Below, one piece after another: positions 1,922 to 62,457 of a DNA stretch of 64,000 nucleotides. The notes beneath the pieces were generated by a model. That model did no database searches. It was not told the DNA's origin and worked only from the letters and a program-made list of their open reading frames with translations. Positions within the stretch are counted from its first letter, which is position 1, and each line of letters begins with the position of its first letter. Source of the DNA: a virus; the IMG/VR virus record IMGVR_UViG_3300007513_000015, positions 35,127 to 99,126 of that record; one strand, written 5' to 3'. Made by a program: the position numbers and the translations under genes.

Positions 1922-4900
1922 ATGGCGTATAATTTTAACACTTCACCATACTATGACGATTTTAATGCAGATGATAGATTTCTAAGGATTCTATTCAATC
2001 CAGGTCGTGCTGTCCAGGCAAGAGAATTAACGCAAATTCAATCCATTCTACAGAATCAATTGCAGTCAGGCGCCAACCATATTTGGAAGAACGGTACTCC
2101 AGTAATTGGTGGTGAAGTATCAATTAATACAAGAGAATGGTTACAATTAGCTGATGTTGATTCGACCTGGTTGAATCGTGTTGTTTATGGAGAAACATCA
2201 AACGCGGTTGCGATAATTGAGCAACTACACGATGATGAAACTCAGCCAATTTATTATTATAGAGTTCTTTCAGGAAATTTTGCTGATACTGAAAATCTAC
2301 ATACATATGATACGGTTTGTGATGGTGGTTTCGATGAATCTGGTAATTGCGCGGACAACTCTTGGTATGATGCTACTCAAGCATACAAAGCGGGTGTTAT
2401 TACAGCAAAGGGTCAAGGTCTTGAAGCTAAAGTTGGGAATGGAATATACTGGTTGGATGGATTTTTCACTCCAGTATTAGAACAAACAATTTTTCTTTCT
2501 CCAACCTCTCCAACACCAACAACAAAAGTTGGTTTTGATATTGGAGAGAATATCATTGAATCTACAACTGATCCGAGACTTCTTGATCCTGCTTCAGGAT
2601 TCTATAATCAGAATGCTCCTGGTGCAGACAGATATCAAATTGCTTTAACCTTAGTAAAAGAAGAGGATTCTGCTGAATCTAATAAATGGATTTGGTTGAT
2701 GGACATTTCTGAAGGTAAAATCACAACTACATTTGAATCAACTACATATTCCCTTCTAGCAAATGAATTGGCACAGCGTACATATGATGAGAGTGGTAAC
2801 TATACACTAAATCCATTCCCATTAGAGATGAAAGAGAGTGCTGATTCTAGTAAATTTATAATTAAAGTAGAACCATCAAAAGCATATATTAATGGCCATT
2901 CTCACGAATTATTAGTTCCTACTGAACTTGAATCTAATAGAGCAAGAACATCAAGGCACGTGGCAAATGACCACATCACTCCTGAATTTGGTCCATATTT
3001 TGAGATTGAAAGTGTTAATGATTTACACGGTGTATTTAATGTAGTTAATAAGGAATATGTTAATTTTGTAACTGATGAAAATTATACTTCTGCTATTGCG
3101 AATCCAACAACTGTAGGTCAGAAACAAAGAATTACCCACGTTACTAAAGAGGATACCTCTTTTAGAATCTATGTTGAAAATGATGATGGTTTAGATGCTA
3201 TTTCACCAGCACGTTATATTGTTTCAGAAAGTGATCCTGATGTATATGCTAAACTATATCGTCCAACGGGAGTAGCAACCCGCAATGGGGTTAATTATCC
3301 TTGGATATATAAAATGACGGATATTGTTTCGTCTGTTACTCTTGGACAGGTAACATTCTCAACACAAAAGAATTTCAGTGCAACATTAACCTCTGATACT
3401 GCTTCTGTTCCTGCTGTATTTAATGATATGCATTGGGAACGTGTTTTATACATTTTCGATGATACTACAGGAAGTATTATTCCTAAATCTGGCACGGTCG
3501 CTTCTGGTGATATGTGGACTGCTGACTTATCAGGAAACACAAACGCTATTATTAATATAGTTGACCAGGATGGTAATGTTAGCACTAATTTAAGTGGACA
3601 CCATATTAGCATTATGGCTGATATGTATATGAGTAATGCCCAGTGGAGGTCAATTGGTCAAGATGCTGCCGCATCTGGTGACTTCATTCTTTCCGATGAA
3701 GTGTTGACTCTTCCACACGGTGTAACTAAAATTGTTTCTGTAATTGCTCCTGATACAACAAATGTTACTAACTCTTTCACTTTCCTTTATGGTGAGACTG
3801 ACACCACATATGGCAATGCCACACTCACTTGGACAGATACAGTAAACGCCTCTCAACCGGGCACATATACAGTTACATATGAAGTATATAACTTCGGCAA
3901 CATCACAACAGCAAACTATTTCGCTGTAAACTCATATACTGATGCTGGTTTATCATATGAGATTATTCCTGCATATAGAGGAAATGTTAATCAGGAAATT
4001 TTTTCACTAGCAGATACACTTGATTTCAGAACATCGGAGGATGATTATGCTGTGGGTACATATTTACCACTTCCTTCATCTAATATTTCTGTTTCATATG
4101 ACTACTATCTTCCTAGAAAGGATAGACTTGTAATTGATGATGATGGTATTATTTCAATCAAAGAGGGATTCCCTTCTGATGATCCGATTCTTCCTACAGA
4201 AGAACCAAATGAAATGACACTATATACAATGTTTGTTCCTGCTTATACATTTGAACATAAAAATGTTAATGTCACTCACGTTAAAAACAAACGATACACA
4301 ATGCAGGATATTCGAGGCATTGAGAATAGACTTGATAAATTAGAATATTACACCGCACTAAATCTACTAGAACAAGAAACTGCGGCGATGCAGGTTATTG
4401 ATGAGAGTGGTTTAATGCGTTATAAGAATGGTATGCTAGTGGATCCATTCGTAGACCACGGCATTGGTGATATCAATGATGAAGAATACTATGTTTCGAT
4501 TTATCCAGAAGCAGGTATTTGCACAACTCCATTTGAAATGAGTGGTCTTGATTTTGAGGGTGGTGTTGTCTCTGGAATGAGAAAGAATAACATTACATAT
4601 ACACTTGATTTTGATATTATCGAGAGTTGGATTTCTCAACCATATGGTTCACAAGTTATCAATCTAAATCCTTACGCAAGAAAATCTTGGGTTGGATTCG
4701 TAACACTTACTCCTTCAACTGATACTTGGTTTGAAGAAGAATATATGCCTGATGTTATTATTCAAAATGAAAATAATAATGCAGTTCTACAACAAGTAGA
4801 GACTTATGGCACTCAAACTCGCTGGGGTAATTGGCAGACAACTTGGAGTGGTTGGAGAGATACTGGCGGAAGATTTGGAGTAACCAGTGGTGCAGAACAA

Positions 4901-7330
4901 ACATTCGGCGGTTGGGGTGGTGCTGGTACAGCAAGAAGAGTTTTCAATGGAACCCAAGGAAGACTTGGTCGTCAATCAGGCGGTATCTCAAGACAGGTTA
5001 GTGTTTGGAGAACTATTGTTAATAGAGAAAGATGGCAACAGGCTCAGCAACAGCAAAGTTCTCAAGTTCGTACAGGTGAAAGAAGTTGGATGGAAACCAA
5101 TGATATCAGAACAGAAGTTGGTGACCGTTTAGTTGATACTTCTGCTATTCCTTGGATGAGATCAATACCTATCACAGTGGAAGCAGATAAATTACGACCT
5201 AATACTGTAATACATTTTAAATTTGACGGTGTCGATGTTGATGCTTATATGACTCCTGAAGGCGGTTCAATGGGTGATGCTGTTTCTACGGATTCTATGG
5301 GACGATTAAGAAATACTATATTCACTGTTCCTTCCGAAGGTTCCGATGGCGTTAGATTTAGAACTGGCACAAAAATACTTGATATGAAAGATTCATATGA
5401 GTCTGATATGACGACTCAAGCAATTGCACCATTCACCTCTGCTGGAACACTTCACACCAGACAAAAAGATATTCTTTCGACTCTCGAATCATATACAGTC
5501 ACAGAATCTATTAGAGATGATAGATCAATCCTTGGACCACGCAGAACTGTTTCGAGAAGTAGAGTAATTAATTCCTCTACATCAAGGATGAATGTTTCGT
5601 TGTGGTATGATCCAGTAGCAGAATCATTCCTTGTTAATGATATGGAGGGCGGGGTATTTATTGATTCAATTGATCTTTACTTCTGGTCAAAAGATGACGA
5701 ATCAACTCCAGTTCGTGTTGAACTTCGTACAATGGAGAATGGATATCCTACGGCTTCTGAAATCCCATTGGCTTCTTCTATGCTATATCCTGAAGATGTT
5801 GTAACAGCTTCAAATGGTACTGCTAATACTCGTTTCACCTTTGCTGATCCAATTTATCTAATGAACGGCACAGAATATTGTTTCGTTGTTATTTCCGATT
5901 CACTTAAATACAATTTGTTTATTTCAGAATTAGGAGAAACAGATTTAGCGACAGGAGAGTATATATCTTCACAACCTTATCTTGGTTCAATGTTCACTTC
6001 ACAGAATAACACAACTTGGACTGCCGAACAAAATAAAGATGTTAAGTTCCGGATTAACAGGTGTGATTTTGATACTGGTTCCGAAGGAACCATTCAATTG
6101 AATATGAAGGGATTTGATGGAACTAAAAAGATTACCAGTTTTACGCCAAACTTCCAGCCTATGGTTCTAACTGGAACTGATTTCACTCTTGAAGGAATTA
6201 TTAACGGTAATACGAATAATACTATTACCGGTATTCTTGATAACGAGAACGAGTTCCTTGAACAACAAGAAACTATTGATGGATCTCATACAATTGAAGG
6301 TGGTTATCAATATACCCCAATTTCTTATATAGCAACTGTTTCTTCTGAAAACTCAAATATATCTCCCGTTATTAACACAGAGAGAATGGGCACTATTATT
6401 CAAAACAATGTTGTTTTTGATAATGCAACTGAGGAAAAGAATCAGAAAGGTGTTTATCTTTCTAAAGATATTAAACTCTCAAATCCAGCAATGGATTTAG
6501 TTATGTGGCTGTCTATTCAAGCAGTTCCTAATACATATATTAAAGTGTTCTATGACACAGGTAAAGTGATTCCGCGTTATATTACTACTAAATCCTATAC
6601 AAACACGATTACACACGGTGATTATAATGTGAATGATTTTGAGGAAGAATATGCTTATGTATATCCTGCTGGAACTAATAGTCCTGAGAATACAATCACT
6701 AATAATGGCCAAGGTATTGCGTCTTGGACTGGTGTGATTGGATCCACACCTGCTTCTACTCACGTTTCAACAGCATATGTTGATGGTGATGATAATCCAG
6801 ATAATACAACTATGATGCATATTGCTGATATATCTAATATGAAGAGTATTGTTAAGTCTTGTTTCATTTCAAGATATGACCTTGATACTGTAACTGCTGA
6901 TGTTACAAGTGCTGGTATTGGTACTGATATCTCTAATTATGAAGTTGGAGATATTTGGTTCGGTATTTGGGATAATGACTTGGATAGAAAGTTCTATCGT
7001 AAAATTCTGATGGCGGATGGTTCTATGAGTAAGGAAGAAGTTCCTGTTCTTGAAATTGATTCTGAGGTTCCAGAAGAGCATCCTGATTTTGGTATTAATC
7101 TTGCTGTTATTGAAGAAGATGCAGTCACTTGGAGAGAAATGAAAGACTCAGGTACAGGTATTACAAACTCTTCTATTGTTACTGATATGGAGTTTGTTGA
7201 ACATACTTTCTCTCCATTGAAGAAAATTGTTGATGAGTTTGATCACTTTAGAGTTAAGATTGAACTTCACACAACTAATCCAGTTTATCTTCCTGCTGTA
7301 CGTGAATTACGTGTAATGGCAGTAACATAG
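1922..7330 (+). CDS. DUF4815-family virion structural protein (large baseplate/tail protein)
   Basis: 1802 residues. The first 60 residues (YNFNTSPYYDDF, then RILFNPGRAVQARELTQIQ and a GTPVIGGE turn) are the signature of the DUF4815 family, a large structural protein of T4-like marine phages encoded near gp8. About residues 1000-1060 are Trp/Gly/Gln-rich and look flexible; the rest reads as repeated beta domains with no catalytic motif. It sits directly after gp8 and before the fibre genes, and an AGGA ribosome site supports the start. It is most likely a baseplate wedge or fibre-attachment protein. Equivalence to T4 gp7 or gp10 is possible but I cannot show it. A short Cys/Trp segment (C-x8-C-x4-W) occurs near residue 131. 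Confidence 0.8.
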   Translation: MAYNFNTSPYYDDFNADDRFLRILFNPGRAVQARELTQIQSILQNQLQSGANHIWKNGTPVIGGEVSINTREWLQLADVDSTWLNRVVYGETSNAVAIIEQLHDDETQPIYYYRVLSGNFADTENLHTYDTVCDGGFDESGNCADNSWYDATQAYKAGVITAKGQGLEAKVGNGIYWLDGFFTPVLEQTIFLSPTSPTPTTKVGFDIGENIIESTTDPRLLDPASGFYNQNAPGADRYQIALTLVKEEDSAESNKWIWLMDISEGKITTTFESTTYSLLANELAQRTYDESGNYTLNPFPLEMKESADSSKFIIKVEPSKAYINGHSHELLVPTELESNRARTSRHVANDHITPEFGPYFEIESVNDLHGVFNVVNKEYVNFVTDENYTSAIANPTTVGQKQRITHVTKEDTSFRIYVENDDGLDAISPARYIVSESDPDVYAKLYRPTGVATRNGVNYPWIYKMTDIVSSVTLGQVTFSTQKNFSATLTSDTASVPAVFNDMHWERVLYIFDDTTGSIIPKSGTVASGDMWTADLSGNTNAIINIVDQDGNVSTNLSGHHISIMADMYMSNAQWRSIGQDAAASGDFILSDEVLTLPHGVTKIVSVIAPDTTNVTNSFTFLYGETDTTYGNATLTWTDTVNASQPGTYTVTYEVYNFGNITTANYFAVNSYTDAGLSYEIIPAYRGNVNQEIFSLADTLDFRTSEDDYAVGTYLPLPSSNISVSYDYYLPRKDRLVIDDDGIISIKEGFPSDDPILPTEEPNEMTLYTMFVPAYTFEHKNVNVTHVKNKRYTMQDIRGIENRLDKLEYYTALNLLEQETAAMQVIDESGLMRYKNGMLVDPFVDHGIGDINDEEYYVSIYPEAGICTTPFEMSGLDFEGGVVSGMRKNNITYTLDFDIIESWISQPYGSQVINLNPYARKSWVGFVTLTPSTDTWFEEEYMPDVIIQNENNNAVLQQVETYGTQTRWGNWQTTWSGWRDTGGRFGVTSGAEQTFGGWGGAGTARRVFNGTQGRLGRQSGGISRQVSVWRTIVNRERWQQAQQQQSSQVRTGERSWMETNDIRTEVGDRLVDTSAIPWMRSIPITVEADKLRPNTVIHFKFDGVDVDAYMTPEGGSMGDAVSTDSMGRLRNTIFTVPSEGSDGVRFRTGTKILDMKDSYESDMTTQAIAPFTSAGTLHTRQKDILSTLESYTVTESIRDDRSILGPRRTVSRSRVINSSTSRMNVSLWYDPVAESFLVNDMEGGVFIDSIDLYFWSKDDESTPVRVELRTMENGYPTASEIPLASSMLYPEDVVTASNGTANTRFTFADPIYLMNGTEYCFVVISDSLKYNLFISELGETDLATGEYISSQPYLGSMFTSQNNTTWTAEQNKDVKFRINRCDFDTGSEGTIQLNMKGFDGTKKITSFTPNFQPMVLTGTDFTLEGIINGNTNNTITGILDNENEFLEQQETIDGSHTIEGGYQYTPISYIATVSSENSNISPVINTERMGTIIQNNVVFDNATEEKNQKGVYLSKDIKLSNPAMDLVMWLSIQAVPNTYIKVFYDTGKVIPRYITTKSYTNTITHGDYNVNDFEEEYAYVYPAGTNSPENTITNNGQGIASWTGVIGSTPASTHVSTAYVDGDDNPDNTTMMHIADISNMKSIVKSCFISRYDLDTVTADVTSAGIGTDISNYEVGDIWFGIWDNDLDRKFYRKILMADGSMSKEEVPVLEIDSEVPEEHPDFGINLAVIEEDAVTWREMKDSGTGITNSSIVTDMEFVEHTFSPLKKIVDEFDHFRVKIELHTTNPVYLPAVRELRVMAVT

Positions 7331-23630: not shown

Positions 23631-25367
23631 ATGAGTCAGTGGATTGCGGGAATTGCTCTAGGGCATAATGCTGGCGTTTGTTTATTAAAAGATGGTGAAA
23701 TTATTTTCTCTGTTGAGGAAGAAAGACTATCAAAGTTTAAGCACGACGGTGGTCCTCTTCTCAGTATGATGAAAATCTTAGACTATACAGATAAACTTGA
23801 TTATCTGATAATCTCTCATTTAATAGCTAATCCACAAGACATAAAAGAATACACGGTTTTAGAATATACTAGAGAACCTCTTTATCAAGGATTTGCCAGA
23901 AGATTAGGATTAATTGAACAATCAAAACCACTTGAAGAACAATCACCACAAGTTATCAATATGGTTGATAACCATCATCAATGTCACTCCGCAATTGCTT
24001 TTTACAATTCTGGATTTCAGACAGCGGCGAGTGTTATTGTAGATAGCAATGGAAGTTCTAATATGTTGACGCCAAACGGAGAAATATATTATGAAACAGA
24101 ATCTATTTTTGATTGTTCTTATACAAAAGGAATAAAAACATTATATAAAAAGGTTCATTGTACTAAGGGGAAAAGTTATTTATTACCAGACAATCATAAT
24201 GCAGATTTGAACGAAACGTTTGAGTTAGAGGCTGATGAAGGTCCGGGCATTGGTAAAGTGTGGGATGCGGTCACAGAGTTTTGTGGATTTCACGTAAACG
24301 AATGTGGAAAGACAATGGGATTATCTGCATACGGCGCACCAAACCCAAACTTACCAGACTTATTTCAAAATGATACTGCTAATAAAGATTTGATAAAAGC
24401 ATTTTATCCATACAGATCCGAACTGAATACAAACAAATATAATATTTTAGATGTTTTGGAATCAGCCGATCAGGATATGGCTTTCAAAGTACAAAAGGAA
24501 ACCCAAGAACAAGTCTTAAAGTTAATTATCAAAGCATCCGAGATGAGTAACAATAAGAATGTGGTATTAAGTGGAGGCTATGCTCTCAATTGTGTTTCTA
24601 ATTATTATTACTTGGATAAACTGAAAGAACACGATATTAATTTGTATGTAGAACCAAATTCGTCTGATGCTGGAACTGCAACTGGTGCCGCCTTGTTATA
24701 TCATTATCGAAAAGGTGATATAAATAAACGAAAAAGAATTGAGAGTTTATATCTAGGGCCGGAACAAAAGTATACCGGTTACGATGTTTTTCAAATTATT
24801 GACAGTTACAATGGACAAGTGAATGATGCTTCATATAAAGAAATTGCCGAACTAATTAAAGAAGGAAATATAGTTGCTATATTTCAGGGTAGGTCTGAGA
24901 TTGGACCTAGAGCATTAGGAAATAGAAGTATTTTGTTCAATCCAACCATAAAAAATGGCAAAGATATCGTAAACAAAGTAAAGAAACGGGAATATTTTAG
25001 ACCATTTGCCGCTTCAGTAATGAAAGAATATGCTCACGATTGGTTTGATATGAAAGGTTTAAAGGAGTCTCCTAATATGATGTATGCTGTTAATGTTAAA
25101 GAAGATAAGAAAAATTTAATACCAGCAGTTTTACACGTAGATGATACTTGCAGAATACAGACCGTTAATAAAAATGTAAATGAACATTATTATAATCTCA
25201 TTGAGGAGTTTTATAAATTAACAGGTATACCGTTATTGTTCAATACTTCATTGAATCTAGCAGGAGATCCTTTAGCGGAAACTCTTAATGATGTGATGGA
25301 AATTTTAACCGATTCGGAAATAGAATATTGTTATATGCCCGAACACGCAACTTTAATTAAATTATAA
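23631..25367 (+). CDS. NodU/CmcH-type carbamoyltransferase, paralogue 1
   Basis: 578 residues, the usual size of NodU/TobZ-type O-carbamoyltransferases, which activate carbamoyl phosphate with ATP and pass the carbamoyl group to a sugar hydroxyl. Visible signatures: an N-terminal LGHNAGVCLLKDG ASKHA-like start; metal-site HHQCH near residue 115; GGYALNCVSN in the kinase-like half; and the YrdC-like C-terminal GRSEIGPRALGNRSIL plus REYFRPFA. It follows the GT9-like gene by 3 bases. It appears more A-rich than paralogue 2, and the two differ widely except for an identical 28-base start, so they probably have different substrates. Confidence 0.9.
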   Translation: MSQWIAGIALGHNAGVCLLKDGEIIFSVEEERLSKFKHDGGPLLSMMKILDYTDKLDYLIISHLIANPQDIKEYTVLEYTREPLYQGFARRLGLIEQSKPLEEQSPQVINMVDNHHQCHSAIAFYNSGFQTAASVIVDSNGSSNMLTPNGEIYYETESIFDCSYTKGIKTLYKKVHCTKGKSYLLPDNHNADLNETFELEADEGPGIGKVWDAVTEFCGFHVNECGKTMGLSAYGAPNPNLPDLFQNDTANKDLIKAFYPYRSELNTNKYNILDVLESADQDMAFKVQKETQEQVLKLIIKASEMSNNKNVVLSGGYALNCVSNYYYLDKLKEHDINLYVEPNSSDAGTATGAALLYHYRKGDINKRKRIESLYLGPEQKYTGYDVFQIIDSYNGQVNDASYKEIAELIKEGNIVAIFQGRSEIGPRALGNRSILFNPTIKNGKDIVNKVKKREYFRPFAASVMKEYAHDWFDMKGLKESPNMMYAVNVKEDKKNLIPAVLHVDDTCRIQTVNKNVNEHYYNLIEEFYKLTGIPLLFNTSLNLAGDPLAETLNDVMEILTDSEIEYCYMPEHATLIKL

Positions 25368-25376
25368 GGATAAAAT

Positions 25377-27149
25377 ATGAGTCAGTGGATTGCGGGAATT
25401 GCTCGAGGACATAATGGCGGTATTTGTCTTTTGAAAGATGGTGAAATTGTTTTTGCTATTGAAGAAGAAAGACTATCCCGAAGAAAATATGATGGTGGAC
25501 CATTTGCATCTATAGTCAAAATTCTTGATTATACAGATAAACTAGATTATCTTGTAATATCACACACACAATCAGATGAAAGTCGTGTTGACTTTTCTGG
25601 TGATAATGTATATGCTGGTCTAGCGAGAAAACTTCGATTGATTGAATCAGAAGATCAAATTATTGATATGCATAAATGGCATCATAAAATGCACGCCGCT
25701 TGTGCTTTCTATCGTTCTGGTTTTGAATCCGCAACAGCATTGATTGTTGATGGAGCTGGCACGTTTATTCCAATGAATATTAATATGCAACAAGAAATGA
25801 CTTGGGAACTTGAAACGATTTTTGATTGTAAGTATCCGGCAGACTTCAAAACTCTTTATAAGCATCAAGGCGGGAGAGGCCCTTGGACATCTGCTCATTA
25901 CACTGATATGGATTCAGAAAGAGAAGGTGAAGAAGGCACGCACGAAATGATTCTTGATGATAGTGCAGGTATTGTAAAAGCGTATGAAGCAGTAACACAA
26001 TATTGTGGCTGGCAACCAATCGAGGCGGGTAAGACTATGGGGCTGTTTCCGTATGGTAAGCCGAATGATAATATTCCTGATATCTATACAGATGGGAATG
26101 GTGGTGATTGGAAAACAACAGATAGAAATGTAATTATTCCAACATATCCCAATGGCGCGCTTGTTAACGCAGGAAGATATAAAGAATTGAGAGAGTGGAA
26201 TGATGGGGATGTAACATTGCTCCAAAATCGTAGAGATATGGCATATGCGATTCAAACTGAATCGCAAGCTATGGTTCTTGATTTGATTCGTAAAGCAGTC
26301 GATAAGAGTGGAAATAAAAATGTAGTTCTTTCTGGTGGATATGGTTTGAATTGTGTAGCAAATTATTGGTATCTTGAGCAATTGAAAGATGAAGATATCA
26401 ATCTATATGTTGAACCAATTTCAAATGATGCAGGAACAGCAGTTGGAGCGGCAATGTTAGCATATCATTCTATAACAAAAGATAATAATGTACGTCCTTT
26501 TGGTGAGTCATTATTCCTTGGTCCTGTACAGAAGAACACTACAGAAGAGATTGTTGAGATTGCAAAGAATTATGGTGCAACTGGTGTATTTGATAAGCAG
26601 TATGCTCCTGATGCAGTTAAGTTGATTTTGAAAGGGAATATAGTAACACTATTCCAGGATAGATGTGAGAATGGGCCGAGAGCATTGGGCAACCGTTCTA
26701 TTCTCTTTGATCCTCGTACGCTTGATGGTAAAGACTACGTGAATAAAGTCAAGCATAGAGAATACTTCCGCCCATTTGCTGGTTCAATCTTACACGAACA
26801 CGCACACGAATGGTTTGATATGAGAGGGCTTGAAGAGTCTCCACATATGATGTATGCTATGAATTGCGCTTCTGATGAATATGCAGAACAGATTCCAGCA
26901 ATCATTCACGTTGATGGTACTTGTAGAATTCAGACTGTAAAGGAACATCAAAATCCAGTCTATTATGAAATGATTGACCACTTCTACAAAGAAACTGGAG
27001 TACCAATTCTTTTCAATACTTCTTTCAATCTTGGTGGTGAACCGCTTGTTGAAACGATTGATGATGCGATTCGTACCCTTGCTAATAGTGATATTGAATA
27101 TCTTTATATTCCAGATAATGATCTAATAATTGAGGTGAAAAACAAATGA
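25377..27149 (+). CDS. NodU/CmcH-type carbamoyltransferase, paralogue 2
   Basis: 590 residues with the same domain order as its neighbour: an N-terminal RGHNGGICLLKDG start, metal-site HHKMH near residue 100, GGYGLNCVAN, and the C-terminal CENGPRALGNRSILFDP and REYFRPFA segments. All the NodU/TobZ catalytic landmarks appear present. The gene overlaps hldD by 4 bases (ATGA), so translation is probably coupled to heptose synthesis. The likely product is a carbamoylated sugar; the acceptor is not shown by the sequence. Confidence 0.9.
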   Translation: MSQWIAGIARGHNGGICLLKDGEIVFAIEEERLSRRKYDGGPFASIVKILDYTDKLDYLVISHTQSDESRVDFSGDNVYAGLARKLRLIESEDQIIDMHKWHHKMHAACAFYRSGFESATALIVDGAGTFIPMNINMQQEMTWELETIFDCKYPADFKTLYKHQGGRGPWTSAHYTDMDSEREGEEGTHEMILDDSAGIVKAYEAVTQYCGWQPIEAGKTMGLFPYGKPNDNIPDIYTDGNGGDWKTTDRNVIIPTYPNGALVNAGRYKELREWNDGDVTLLQNRRDMAYAIQTESQAMVLDLIRKAVDKSGNKNVVLSGGYGLNCVANYWYLEQLKDEDINLYVEPISNDAGTAVGAAMLAYHSITKDNNVRPFGESLFLGPVQKNTTEEIVEIAKNYGATGVFDKQYAPDAVKLILKGNIVTLFQDRCENGPRALGNRSILFDPRTLDGKDYVNKVKHREYFRPFAGSILHEHAHEWFDMRGLEESPHMMYAMNCASDEYAEQIPAIIHVDGTCRIQTVKEHQNPVYYEMIDHFYKETGVPILFNTSFNLGGEPLVETIDDAIRTLANSDIEYLYIPDNDLIIEVKNK

Positions 27150-59731: not shown

Positions 59732-60187
59732 CTAACTAATTATTTTAAACAACATACTGTCTGGATTTGATAGCATTAAACCAATGAAAATAGAACCACC
59801 AACGATAATCCATCTCCATTTCTCTAATACTGCAACTCTTTGGTCTAATTGATATCTGATGGCTCGCATTTCGTTGAGCATTTTGTTTTCTGAAATCACT
59901 TGGTGTTCTCTTAATTCTCTAGTATTTGTGGTTATTCTTGAATGTAATTCTTTGAGGTCATTATCCCACTCTTTACGGCGAGATTCTAAAGTAACAAAAA
60001 TATCATTATCAGTTTCTTCTGCCTTTTGAAGTTTAGTTTCTTGTTGAACAAGCATACCCTTTAACGATACTGTTATATCGGTTAATTTTTCAATTGCTAC
60101 TTCTAGTCGCTGGTGAATATGCTCACTTTGTTTAGCCTCTTTTTTGAGTAAAGCAACATCTGTTTGAAGTTTTTGTAAATCTGACAT
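59732..60187 (-). CDS. Coiled-coil protein with C-terminal membrane anchor
   Basis: 151 residues: a long heptad-patterned helix (1-125) and one membrane segment (about 126-142, WIIVGGSIFIGLML). It lies at the distal end of the lysis-like operon, after the o-spanin. A similar helix-then-membrane design is seen at 29629. A role in lysis timing or membrane scaffolding is plausible; no family is identified. Confidence 0.68.
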   Translation of the reverse strand: MSDLQKLQTDVALLKKEAKQSEHIHQRLEVAIEKLTDITVSLKGMLVQQETKLQKAEETDNDIFVTLESRRKEWDNDLKELHSRITTNTRELREHQVISENKMLNEMRAIRYQLDQRVAVLEKWRWIIVGGSIFIGLMLSNPDSMLFKIIS

Positions 60188-60208: not shown

Positions 60209-60592
60209 TTACTCAACTACATCTGAAGCCTCTGTTGTGGGCTGTGGGTCTGATGGCTCATAATATTCTTTATATGCCAATAAGAGTTGTCTTTGTTCTG
60301 CAAGTTTGTTTCTTATGTCAGTATAGTTTATTTGTATTTTTTCATATCCAGTATCTTCTACAGCAAACAGGGCATACTCACCGCCTGCTGATTTGATTCT
60401 TTCAAATATTTCAGCTGCGTTATCTTTTGTGATAACAATCCATTCAATGTCTTGCAATTTTAGTGGGTCTGGATTTGGTAGATTAAGTGGTGTCTTTGAA
60501 ACTTCAATTGTTGTTACTTGTATTTCTTGTACACTCTCTGAACAGCTTGATAAAAATACTGCAAGTAGTCCTAGAAGTAGGATGTTTTTCAT
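60209..60592 (-). CDS. Probable o-spanin-like lipoprotein
   Basis: 127 residues from ATG 60592, which has GGAG 6 bases upstream; ATGs at 60622 and 60604 add no useful signal. A lipoprotein signal ends in LAVFLSSC, giving lipid attachment at Cys17 of this start. The mature part begins SESVQEIQ, with a Pro-rich NLPNPDPLKL segment, then an acidic end. It directly follows the i-spanin-like gene, as in Rz/Rz1 pairs that fuse inner and outer membranes at lysis. It is longer than Rz1, so the assignment rests on lipobox, proline content and neighbour. Confidence 0.68.
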   Translation of the reverse strand: MKNILLLGLLAVFLSSCSESVQEIQVTTIEVSKTPLNLPNPDPLKLQDIEWIVITKDNAAEIFERIKSAGGEYALFAVEDTGYEKIQINYTDIRNKLAEQRQLLLAYKEYYEPSDPQPTTEASDVVE

Positions 60593-60608
60593 TTTATTCT
60601 CCATAATA

Positions 60609-61070
60609 TTATTTAGGTACATAATTCGGGTTTGCCAATCGAGGGCAGTCTAAATTTGCTTGTGATTTCTTTGTAACTGCAATTTCTTCTTCAGTAAGTG
60701 GTGAACCAGAAGCAATCTCCATACACCTTTTTGCGTTACCTCTTTCCTTGTTTACTATCTTTACGACTAATGCTGGTCTTGCCTCTGCGAGTTGACCGAA
60801 ATCGTGTTCTGATAACTTTTTAATTAGAACATCTTTATCTGATTGCAAAGCATCTCTATTATCTCGAACCTCGCCCAATGTAGTTCTGACTTTTTCAAAA
60901 TCTTCGGCTTGTTGTTTGATAGTCGCTTCGTTTTGTTCAACAGCACCTTCTAATTTAGTAGTATTGATTTTTAAAGTAGCATTGTCTGCTCGAAGTTTCT
61001 GCACATACACATATCCGCCGCCAGCAACACTAACGATTAATAAAAAGATTATTAATTTAACTTGAAACAT
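60609..61070 (-). CDS. Probable i-spanin (Rz-like)
   Basis: 153 residues: an N-terminal membrane anchor (about 5-23, KLIIFLLIVSVAGGGYVYV), a coiled coil (25-90), then EHDFGQLAEARPALVVKIVNKERGNAKRCMEIASG with a Cys that could form a dimer disulphide. This is the usual shape of inner-membrane spanins and a pattern common in marine phages. It starts in a TAATG overlap with the ACP gene and ends 16 bases before the start of the lipoprotein. Confidence 0.8.
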   Translation of the reverse strand: MFQVKLIIFLLIVSVAGGGYVYVQKLRADNATLKINTTKLEGAVEQNEATIKQQAEDFEKVRTTLGEVRDNRDALQSDKDVLIKKLSEHDFGQLAEARPALVVKIVNKERGNAKRCMEIASGSPLTEEEIAVTKKSQANLDCPRLANPNYVPK

Positions 61071-61285
61071 TAGTTATTAATGATATCAAAGATATCTTGT
61101 ACTGTTTCAATTGTGCCAGCTTCTTCGTCAGTAATAGGACGATTCCATTTCTTTCCAACTTCAATGATTACTTCTAAATTAGTCCAATCATCTGAGTCTA
61201 AATCGTCTATTAAATGTGAAGTCGGTGATATTTCACTTACATCTACATCTAATTTTTCACTTAAATATTTTATTAATTCTTCCAT
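61070..61285 (-). CDS. Acyl carrier protein-like
   Basis: 71 residues, acidic, the size and helical pattern of an ACP: LSEKLDVDVSEISPTSHLIDDLDSDDWTNLEVIIEVGKKW. The carrier serine would be Ser31 in D-S-D-D, where the standard site is D-S-L; the Leu-to-Asp change is unusual but the Asp-Ser pair is kept. A holo-ACP carries acyl chains on phosphopantetheine. It is joined by TAATG overlaps to the membrane protein before it and the i-spanin after it, and lies two genes from a lipase, so it may take part in membrane lipid remodelling. Confidence 0.75.
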   Translation of the reverse strand: MEELIKYLSEKLDVDVSEISPTSHLIDDLDSDDWTNLEVIIEVGKKWNRPITDEEAGTIETVQDIFDIINN

Positions 61286-61560
61286 TATTTCTCCAATTTT
61301 TCTAATCGTTTTTCAAGTTCATCAATCTTTTTAGTAACATATGGATACTTCTTTCTCCAAGCATCTTCTGGTTGTTCTAACCAAGTCCAACCAAATCGTT
61401 CAACGAGATAGTCTACACTTCTGTCGAACTTAGAATATAACCAAAGACCTATTCTTGTGCCTTTAAAGTATGTTGAAAACGCCAGACCGAATAGAGAACC
61501 AACTAATGCAGTATAAATCCACAGACGATTTGACGCCATTTGTTCTATCATTTCCCACAT
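61285..61560 (-). CDS. Small membrane protein of the lysis-like operon
   Basis: 91 residues with one hydrophobic segment (about 13-31, LWIYTALVGSLFGLAFSTY), then a basic amphipathic part and a C-terminal charged helix (KKIDELEKRLEKLEK). The aromatic EDAWRKKYPYV segment is conserved-looking. TAATG overlaps join it to the lipase upstream and the ACP downstream. It may anchor or regulate the lipase/ACP; a holin or anti-holin role is also possible. Confidence 0.65.
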   Translation of the reverse strand: MWEMIEQMASNRLWIYTALVGSLFGLAFSTYFKGTRIGLWLYSKFDRSVDYLVERFGWTWLEQPEDAWRKKYPYVTKKIDELEKRLEKLEK

Positions 61561-62294
61561 TACTTCTTACCTGCTCTCTCACAAAGTTCGTGATAACCGC
61601 CCATAGAATGGTCAGAGAATCCATCAACTTTACCTTTCAGTAATCCTCTGCTTGTGCCTTTGAACCATTGTGAAATCATATACCAACGACTATATCCTTC
61701 TTTAACATTGCCGTCAATATCAAAATATGTTGTCTTATCACTTTTATGACTGAATCCAAGAAACTCGGGTGGAACTTTTGTAACTATATCGTTATTATTT
61801 CTAAAACGATAAGCAGTAAATAACATTCTCTTTGTTTGTTTTGGGGTTCCTACTCTTGGTGAACCAAAAGTATAACAAACAGAATTTGGGTCGCCTATTC
61901 TATGTGAATATAATGTTGCCAAAGCAGCACCCAAACTATGTCCTGTTACTACTAATTGTTTGCCTTCAGAATTTTTATTATAGTCGTCAAATAAATCATC
62001 CCAAACATCATCTAATGCGGCTTTAAATCCTCTGTGTATTCCGCCTTTCTTACGAAATTGAACATCTGCTTTAATATCTTCCCAAGATGTTGGTTCTGTG
62101 CCTCGAAAAACTACAATATAGTTCTTTGGACAGGTGAGTACATAACATTCAGTACCACCATGAGCGAACATCTTAATAACATCCCAATCTTTACTGAATG
62201 TTTTCTTAAAGTCTTTTAAACCTGTATAGGCGTGTTTACTTAATCTTGCCATAAAGGTTGCAGTCTTCCAAGAAAACTTATTATCCAGTTGCAT
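61560..62294 (-). CDS. Class 3 lipase (alpha/beta hydrolase)
   Basis: 244 residues. YIVVFRGTEPTSWEDI and VVTGHSLGAALATLYS contain the lipase class 3 strand and the nucleophile elbow G-H-S-L-G with Ser120; FRNNNDIVTKVPP gives Asp169, and SDHSMGGYHEL gives a His at 229 or 235. FGSPRVG is also typical. Such enzymes cut acyl esters of glycerolipids. There is no signal peptide, so it acts in the cytoplasm or crosses with a holin. It starts 5 bases after the holin-like gene and is joined by TAATG to the next gene. No muralytic enzyme is visible in the window. Confidence 0.88.
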   Translation of the reverse strand: MQLDNKFSWKTATFMARLSKHAYTGLKDFKKTFSKDWDVIKMFAHGGTECYVLTCPKNYIVVFRGTEPTSWEDIKADVQFRKKGGIHRGFKAALDDVWDDLFDDYNKNSEGKQLVVTGHSLGAALATLYSHRIGDPNSVCYTFGSPRVGTPKQTKRMLFTAYRFRNNNDIVTKVPPEFLGFSHKSDKTTYFDIDGNVKEGYSRWYMISQWFKGTSRGLLKGKVDGFSDHSMGGYHELCERAGKK

Positions 62295-62298
62295 GATA

Positions 62299-62457
62299 TT
62301 AACCTTTAGTTAATGATTGATAAGCGCCATAAGCAATAGCGGCATAAGCTGCTAAATTTGCCCAACTACCTAAAAATAAAATAACTAATCCGACTGCGAT
62401 TAATCCTAATCCACCTTGTGAGGATTTTTCTTTAATTCTTTCTGTTACGAAGTTCAT
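62299..62457 (-). CDS. Small two-segment membrane peptide, holin-like
   Basis: 52 residues from ATG 62457 with AAGGAG about 7 bases upstream, ending at TAA 62301-62299. A charged start (NFVTERIKEK) precedes two hydrophobic stretches (LGLIAVGLVILFLG and NLAAYAAIAYGAY) and a short polar end. This resembles small class II or III holins. It comes directly before the lipase gene and opens the lysis-like cluster. Holin activity is inferred from shape and position only. Confidence 0.62.
   Translation of the reverse strand: MNFVTERIKEKSSQGGLGLIAVGLVILFLGSWANLAAYAAIAYGAYQSLTKG

Follow-up and report, generated by a model that had tools for sequence, protein, structure and literature searches.

A lysis cassette of a marine T4-like phage with a class 3 lipase and a serine-less acyl carrier protein-like gene

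The usual phage lysis scheme relies on a holin, an endolysin and a spanin. Why, then, should a lipase gene and an acyl carrier protein (ACP) gene stand among the spanin genes of a virus, with no endolysin beside them? This question is raised by positions 60209-62457 of the stretch analysed here (64,000 nucleotides, hereafter the window), for which a first-pass annotation had proposed either that attack on, or remodelling of, membrane lipids is part of lysis, or that the ACP takes up the fatty acids set free. We take up the phage and its cassette, then the lipase with its membrane-protein neighbor, and then the ACP-like protein.

The cassette and the whereabouts of the endolysin

The window comprises bases 35127-99126 of a 99,126-base virus record, which may be a fragment. 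It carries T4-type genes for baseplate gp8, tail sheath stabiliser gp15, prohead protease, gp32, gp59, UvsY, a sliding clamp and a RegA-type translational regulator; thus, the source phage is T4-like. The block of interest is on the minus strand, close to the right end of the window; primase-like and ribonucleotide reductase genes come after it in relatives. All six minus-strand open reading frames reported in the first-pass annotation were confirmed at their coordinates, together with the three TAATG junctions (lipase/MEM, MEM/ACP and ACP/i-spanin). For the five genes tested against two relatives, dN/dS was 0.07-0.27, indicating purifying selection, which means that these genes are real and under constraint. 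An Rfam search of the region found no RNA. All 15 occurrences of the T4 late-promoter-like motif TATAAATA in the window are on the plus strand (shuffle mean 6.8, both strands); the minus-strand lysis block has none, a point against the mechanism proposed below. Elsewhere in the window, positions 23631-27149 hold a tandem pair of carbamoyltransferase-like genes, which code for 578 and 590 aa, are almost identical at their N-termini and adjoin epimerase- and cupin-like genes; the one scanned matches PF02543/PF16861.

Judged by sequence, two of the six genes are a two-component spanin pair. The i-spanin (60609..61070, minus strand) matches PHROG 739 at 4.1e-13 and has an N-terminal transmembrane segment followed by coiled-coil-like sequence, and the o-spanin lipoprotein (60209..60622, minus strand) matches PHROG 812 at 1.5e-8 and has the lipobox LSSC. 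The likelier start of the o-spanin is the ATG at 60592, giving MKNILLLGLLAVFLSSC with its lipobox; as listed, the two genes overlap by 14 nt. A transmembrane i-spanin, an o-spanin with a lipoprotein signal and overlapping genes, the features of two-component spanins, are therefore all present. At the other end of the block, HOL52 (62299..62457, minus strand) is a 52-aa hydrophobic holin-like peptide whose reading frame has a good Shine-Dalgarno sequence and which is hydrophobic from residue 19. Its family, of about 50-65 aa, is found near lipase, MEM or spanin genes in 64 loci. No holin family of Pfam or PHROG matches HOL52, so it is called a candidate holin here; both HOL52 and MEM fit loosely, each being small, having transmembrane segments and belonging to a lysis cassette. 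Next to the block, a coiled-coil protein with a C-terminal hydrophobic segment (59732..60187, minus strand; PF23831, DUF7201, 2.4e-10) is syntenic in relatives, and its gene is present in 33 related loci, all of which have lipase and MEM.

Relatives were collected in two IMG/VR scans, one with a lipase query (80 loci) and one with a MEM query (80 loci), and were mapped with profile HMMs; these samples are best-hit sets, partly redundant, and counts from them are descriptive. Cassette orders in the relatives include HOL-LIP-MEM-iSP-oSP, HOL-iSP-oSP-LIP-MEM, GH19-iSP-oSP-MEM-LIP, HOL-MEM-LIP-iSP-oSP and GH24-iSP-oSP-MEM-LIP. With the spanin pair confirmed by its PHROG matches and the lipase recurring beside lysis genes, the lysis reading of the block is borne out: positions 60209-62457 are the lysis cassette of a marine T4-like phage. 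The first-pass annotation held that relatives with spanins lacking the lipase or ACP in the same place would refute its proposal, and the relatives do so in part: in many of them the spanins stand without ACP (L004-L007 and L010) or without lipase (GH108 cassettes). Comparison with related phages shows the lipase and the ACP-like gene to be separate add-ons to an otherwise standard lysis kit.

As first noted, no endolysin was found near the block. None was found in the 99-kb record either, a possible fragment, when most of its reading frames were compared with Pfam (several large structural proteins against part of the families), or when the record was searched directly for GH19, GH108, M15, CHAP, phage lysozyme and TIGR02594. 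Likewise, two lipase-MEM contigs of more than 100 kb (G010 and G012, maybe incomplete) gave no endolysin match with the families tried. The step from the missing endolysin to a lipase-based alternative does not follow, since relatives carry both enzymes. In G001, a relative of 146 kb, the order HOL-iSP-oSP-LIP-MEM is found at about 23-25 kb and the gene for a GH108 endolysin at 137 kb; G015 combines a stand-alone lipase and a GH108 endolysin in one genome; in G011 a lysozyme gene immediately precedes iSP-oSP-MEM-LIP; and in some relatives the lipase is within a cassette that also holds a GH19 or GH24 endolysin. This coexistence rules out the lipase as an endolysin replacement: it adds to the endolysin and does not substitute for it. 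The endolysin gene of this phage is most likely encoded elsewhere. A CHAP/NlpC-like lipoprotein gene (PF05257, 8.9e-6) was also seen between o-spanin and MEM at 6508-6975 of locus L095, in a cassette already provided with a GH19 endolysin.

The lipase and its membrane-protein neighbor

LIP (61560..62294, minus strand) is a class 3 lipase of 244 aa, matching PF01764 at 8e-18 with 65.1 bits against a cut-off of 22. Its triad, Ser120/Asp169/His229, is invariant in 30/30 relatives, including that of P-SSM2. Among solved structures, its closest relatives are class 3 lipases of fungi (best 3ngm, 2e-26), and a Pfam search at E up to 0.1 returned Lipase_3 and general alpha/beta hydrolase families and no cutinase family. 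Neither a signal peptide nor a transmembrane segment is apparent. From the gene context, we infer that its substrate is phospholipid. In the literature searched, the coverage of which was incomplete, we found no report of a phage class 3 lipase tied to lysis.

MEM (61285..61560, minus strand) is a 91-aa membrane protein with an N-terminal hydrophobic helix and a charged helical C-terminus; its AF2 model is of low confidence (pLDDT 61). It has no match among the known holin families of Pfam and PHROG. XhlA hemolysin scores 14.1 bits, below the cut-off of 34.7, and the MEM family shows weak hemolysin/XhlA similarity to PHROG 1193 (0.004 in 5/27). Relatives occur in at least 524 stretches in IMG/VR; a search of isolated phages gave no match, and a search of bacterial assemblies gave one, a Rhodobacteraceae bin contig of uncertain origin. 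In other marine phages MEM adjoins spanins and an endolysin of the GH108, GH19 or GH24 family, whether or not a lipase is present, one form being endolysin, i-spanin, o-spanin, MEM. Among the sampled loci, 51 have MEM without lipase, and GH108 or GH19 is present in 45 of them and spanins in 42; the MEM of lipase-free cassettes is 80-90% identical to that of the window. Its presence in endolysin-spanin cassettes without lipase means that MEM is a general member of marine phage lysis cassettes and that the lipase is optional. By sequence comparison, MEM is the most conserved piece of the cassette. Strict co-occurrence of lipase and MEM was considered and dropped: it held in 12/12 MEM genomes at first, and then a lipase was present in only 1/18 further MEM contigs, mostly fragments. 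In the lysis cassettes of L099 (2155-2616) and its relatives, a small protein just after MEM resembles the mechanosensitive-channel beta-domain (PF00924, 0.016, below cut-off).

When lipase and MEM do occur together, the two genes are closely tied. All 55 distinct pairs in the sampled loci are on the same strand, 47 with a gap of at most 35 nt and 26 with a 1-nt overlap, and both orders are found; such varied gene order means that plain inheritance of a single arrangement does not explain the association. The lipase is thus best described, from sequence, as an optional addition to the cassette that usually adjoins MEM. The suggestion that membrane attack is part of lysis fits these data, as the lipase is near lysis genes in several orders and its triad is intact.

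The lipase might instead be an auxiliary metabolic enzyme, which frees fatty acids from host lipids for energy or membrane turnover and has lysis neighbors because late genes cluster. We consider this a less likely explanation, yet the strongest of the alternatives. P-SSM2 and P-SSM5 have an annotated lipase, LIP has no secretion signal, and 32 sampled lipase loci have no MEM nearby; in G015 the lipase is also apart from lysis genes. In phages of that kind, with lipase genes away from lysis genes, the enzyme may have another job. Against this explanation, the lipase is repeatedly paired directly with MEM in many gene orders, and no further gene for fatty-acid use turned up in the block.

Two further gene groups were noticed around these loci. 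In one marine phage group (L014, L018, L041 and L043), four consecutive secreted proteins of about 300, 170, 130 and 145 aa, which by eye resemble pilins or chaperones, are encoded directly upstream of or near the lipase. In L082, a minus-strand gene at 4359-4721 encodes a secreted 120-aa protein with the zinc-protease motif HELYH and no Pfam or PHROG match, and its minus-strand neighbors are a DUF1353 gene (4770-5294) and a lipoprotein-like gene (3958-4275). Since DUF1353-like genes also occur in the lysis cassettes of L294 and L325, the L082 group may be a second lysis-related cluster.

An acyl carrier protein without its serine

The ACP-like protein (61070..61285, minus strand) is a true ACP homologue. 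It matches PHROG 5934 at 4e-6; a profile of 14 relatives matches bacterial ACPs in the PDB at 1.3e-18, with Asp in the column of the DSL serine; and one relative (L107) matches PF00550 at 3.4e-8. Its AF2 model (pLDDT 85) has the ACP fold, with a foldseek TM of about 0.9 to ACP structures. The first-pass annotation pointed to Ser31 as the phosphopantetheine site. This is the wrong residue, because an ungapped alignment to bacterial ACPs places Asp33 in that column. With Asp in place of serine, the usual means of carrying an acyl chain is closed to this protein.

The loss is not confined to the window. All 18 ACP loci among the lipase/MEM loci are without the phosphopantetheine serine, and 10 of these have no lipase nearby. 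To reduce bias, a second IMG/VR scan was queried mostly with serine-bearing ACPs. In the combined scans, the serine column holds Asp (15) or Glu (11) and never Ser in the 26 distinct ACPs encoded directly upstream of an i-spanin, and ACPs in other positions have Ser in 56/73; some Ser- or Pro-bearing ACPs lie directly after the o-spanin. In a tree built on few columns (72), the ACPs upstream of i-spanins form three well-supported clades. Three independent origins are not thereby established, as the AU test does not reject a single clade (p 0.11). Five loci (L285, L295, L302, L311 and L313) also have ACP-like genes without the serine (GADDF or GADEF) between two probable tail or baseplate genes, so lysis is not the sole context for such ACPs. 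The cultivated Serratia phage phiMAM1 (L439, 2384-2656) has an annotated acyl carrier protein with Glu for serine (DLWFDELD), and it is a possible laboratory model. The literature searched, with incomplete coverage, yielded no described lysis system with a serine-less ACP.

Could the ACP-like gene be a passive, drifted remnant, kept because its coupled translation aids expression of the i-spanin? In these cassettes the ACP is always directly upstream of the i-spanin and overlaps it, and the serine is lost, as a remnant would have it. We find this doubtful, however, because the gene is under purifying selection (dN/dS about 0.2), the substitute residue is always Asp or Glu across the three clades, and residues D27, D28, L29, D32, T61 and V62 are invariant.

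Proposed mechanism and comparison with known systems

We propose, at a probability of roughly 55%, that the block is a lysis cassette to which two functions have been added: a membrane-cutting LIP placed by MEM, and an apo-ACP look-alike that blocks host lipid synthesis. HOL52 and/or MEM would work at the inner membrane, the endolysin would cut the wall, and the spanins would join the inner and outer membranes. LIP would be a cytoplasmic lipase, which MEM, presumably by binding it, most likely holds or releases at the membrane; there it would cut phospholipids and weaken the bilayer at lysis. The ACP-like protein would be a protein-binding look-alike, most plausibly a permanent apo-ACP, and by blocking host phospholipid synthesis it may leave the membrane damage unrepaired. 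The decoy idea comes from published apo-ACP inhibition: glycerol-3-phosphate acyltransferase is inhibited by apo-ACP to a greater extent than by holo-ACP, and E. coli stops growing when apo-ACP is produced together with a thioesterase (PMC3896788). The Asp33 protein may possibly act as an inhibitor of host lipid synthesis of this type.

A wider form of the proposal is offered tentatively. Marine phage lysis cassettes may carry an unmodifiable decoy ACP, perhaps recruited repeatedly from serine-bearing ACPs and always placed directly before the i-spanin with Asp or Glu, which would shut off host ACP-dependent phospholipid or LPS synthesis in step with the spanins, some phages adding a lipase to cut the membrane now left without repair.

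Two alternatives to this mechanism fare poorly. MEM could serve the lipase as a dedicated inhibitor or immunity partner, holding it in check until lysis, and not as a recruiter, as might be expected of a small membrane protein whose gene adjoins and overlaps that of a potentially toxic lipase, but this is unlikely given the 51 lipase-free loci, in which a closely similar MEM sits in standard endolysin-spanin cassettes. That lipase and ACP form one fatty-acid unit, with freed fatty acids reloaded on the ACP as first suggested, is very improbable: the two genes do lie together with serial overlaps, both in the window and in some relatives (L086-L088, for example), but neither the window nor any spanin-upstream relative has a phosphopantetheine serine, the same ACP type stands before the i-spanin in lipase-free GH108/GH19 cassettes, most relatives have the lipase without ACP, the block showed no gene for an acyl-ACP synthetase, and the independent distribution of both genes speaks strongly against a functional pair.

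Host lipids are here a likely fourth lysis target, reached through the optional lipase and the ACP look-alike, and the lipase is tied to a very common, unnamed lysis-cassette protein, MEM. Compared with three-step lysis of gram-negative hosts, the cassette shares overlapping i- and o-spanin genes, small membrane proteins and, in relatives, an endolysin; it differs in its two extra overlapping genes (the lipase and the serine-less ACP), in an endolysin gene that in this lineage is not beside the spanins, and in a holin that is a candidate only.

For the ACP-like protein, the resemblance to bacterial AcpP covers fold and full-length sequence, but the serine of the AcpP DSL motif is Asp here, which precludes the usual conversion to holo-ACP. 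An ACP gene in a spanin neighborhood is also known from the published description of Eneladusvirus jumbo phages, near a spanin-like gene (PMC7760394), and from Xanthomonas phage XbC2, whose ACP, however, keeps the serine (MDSLD) and lies two genes away from the o-spanin. In published work, acpP genes of prophages are counted as metabolic (PMC8224337); such a reading of phage ACPs would be wrong for the serine-less group.

For the lipase, cyanophage P-SSM2 encodes an esterase/lipase, PSSM2_200, a class 3 lipase that shares about 30% identity and has the triad, in the same synteny upstream of gp61-nrdA-nrdB and overlapped by a 70-aa amphipathic ORF; unlike LIP, it has no annotated MEM homologue, spanin or ACP as a neighbor. 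The nearest known lysis enzyme in role is LysB of mycobacteriophages Ms6 and D29 (PMC6116114), which belongs to another family. Like LIP, LysB is a lysis-cassette serine hydrolase with a G-X-S-X-G motif, additional to the endolysin. LysB, however, is cutinase-like and cuts the mycobacterial mycolyl-arabinogalactan link (PMC6116114), whereas LIP is a class 3 lipase encoded beside spanins.
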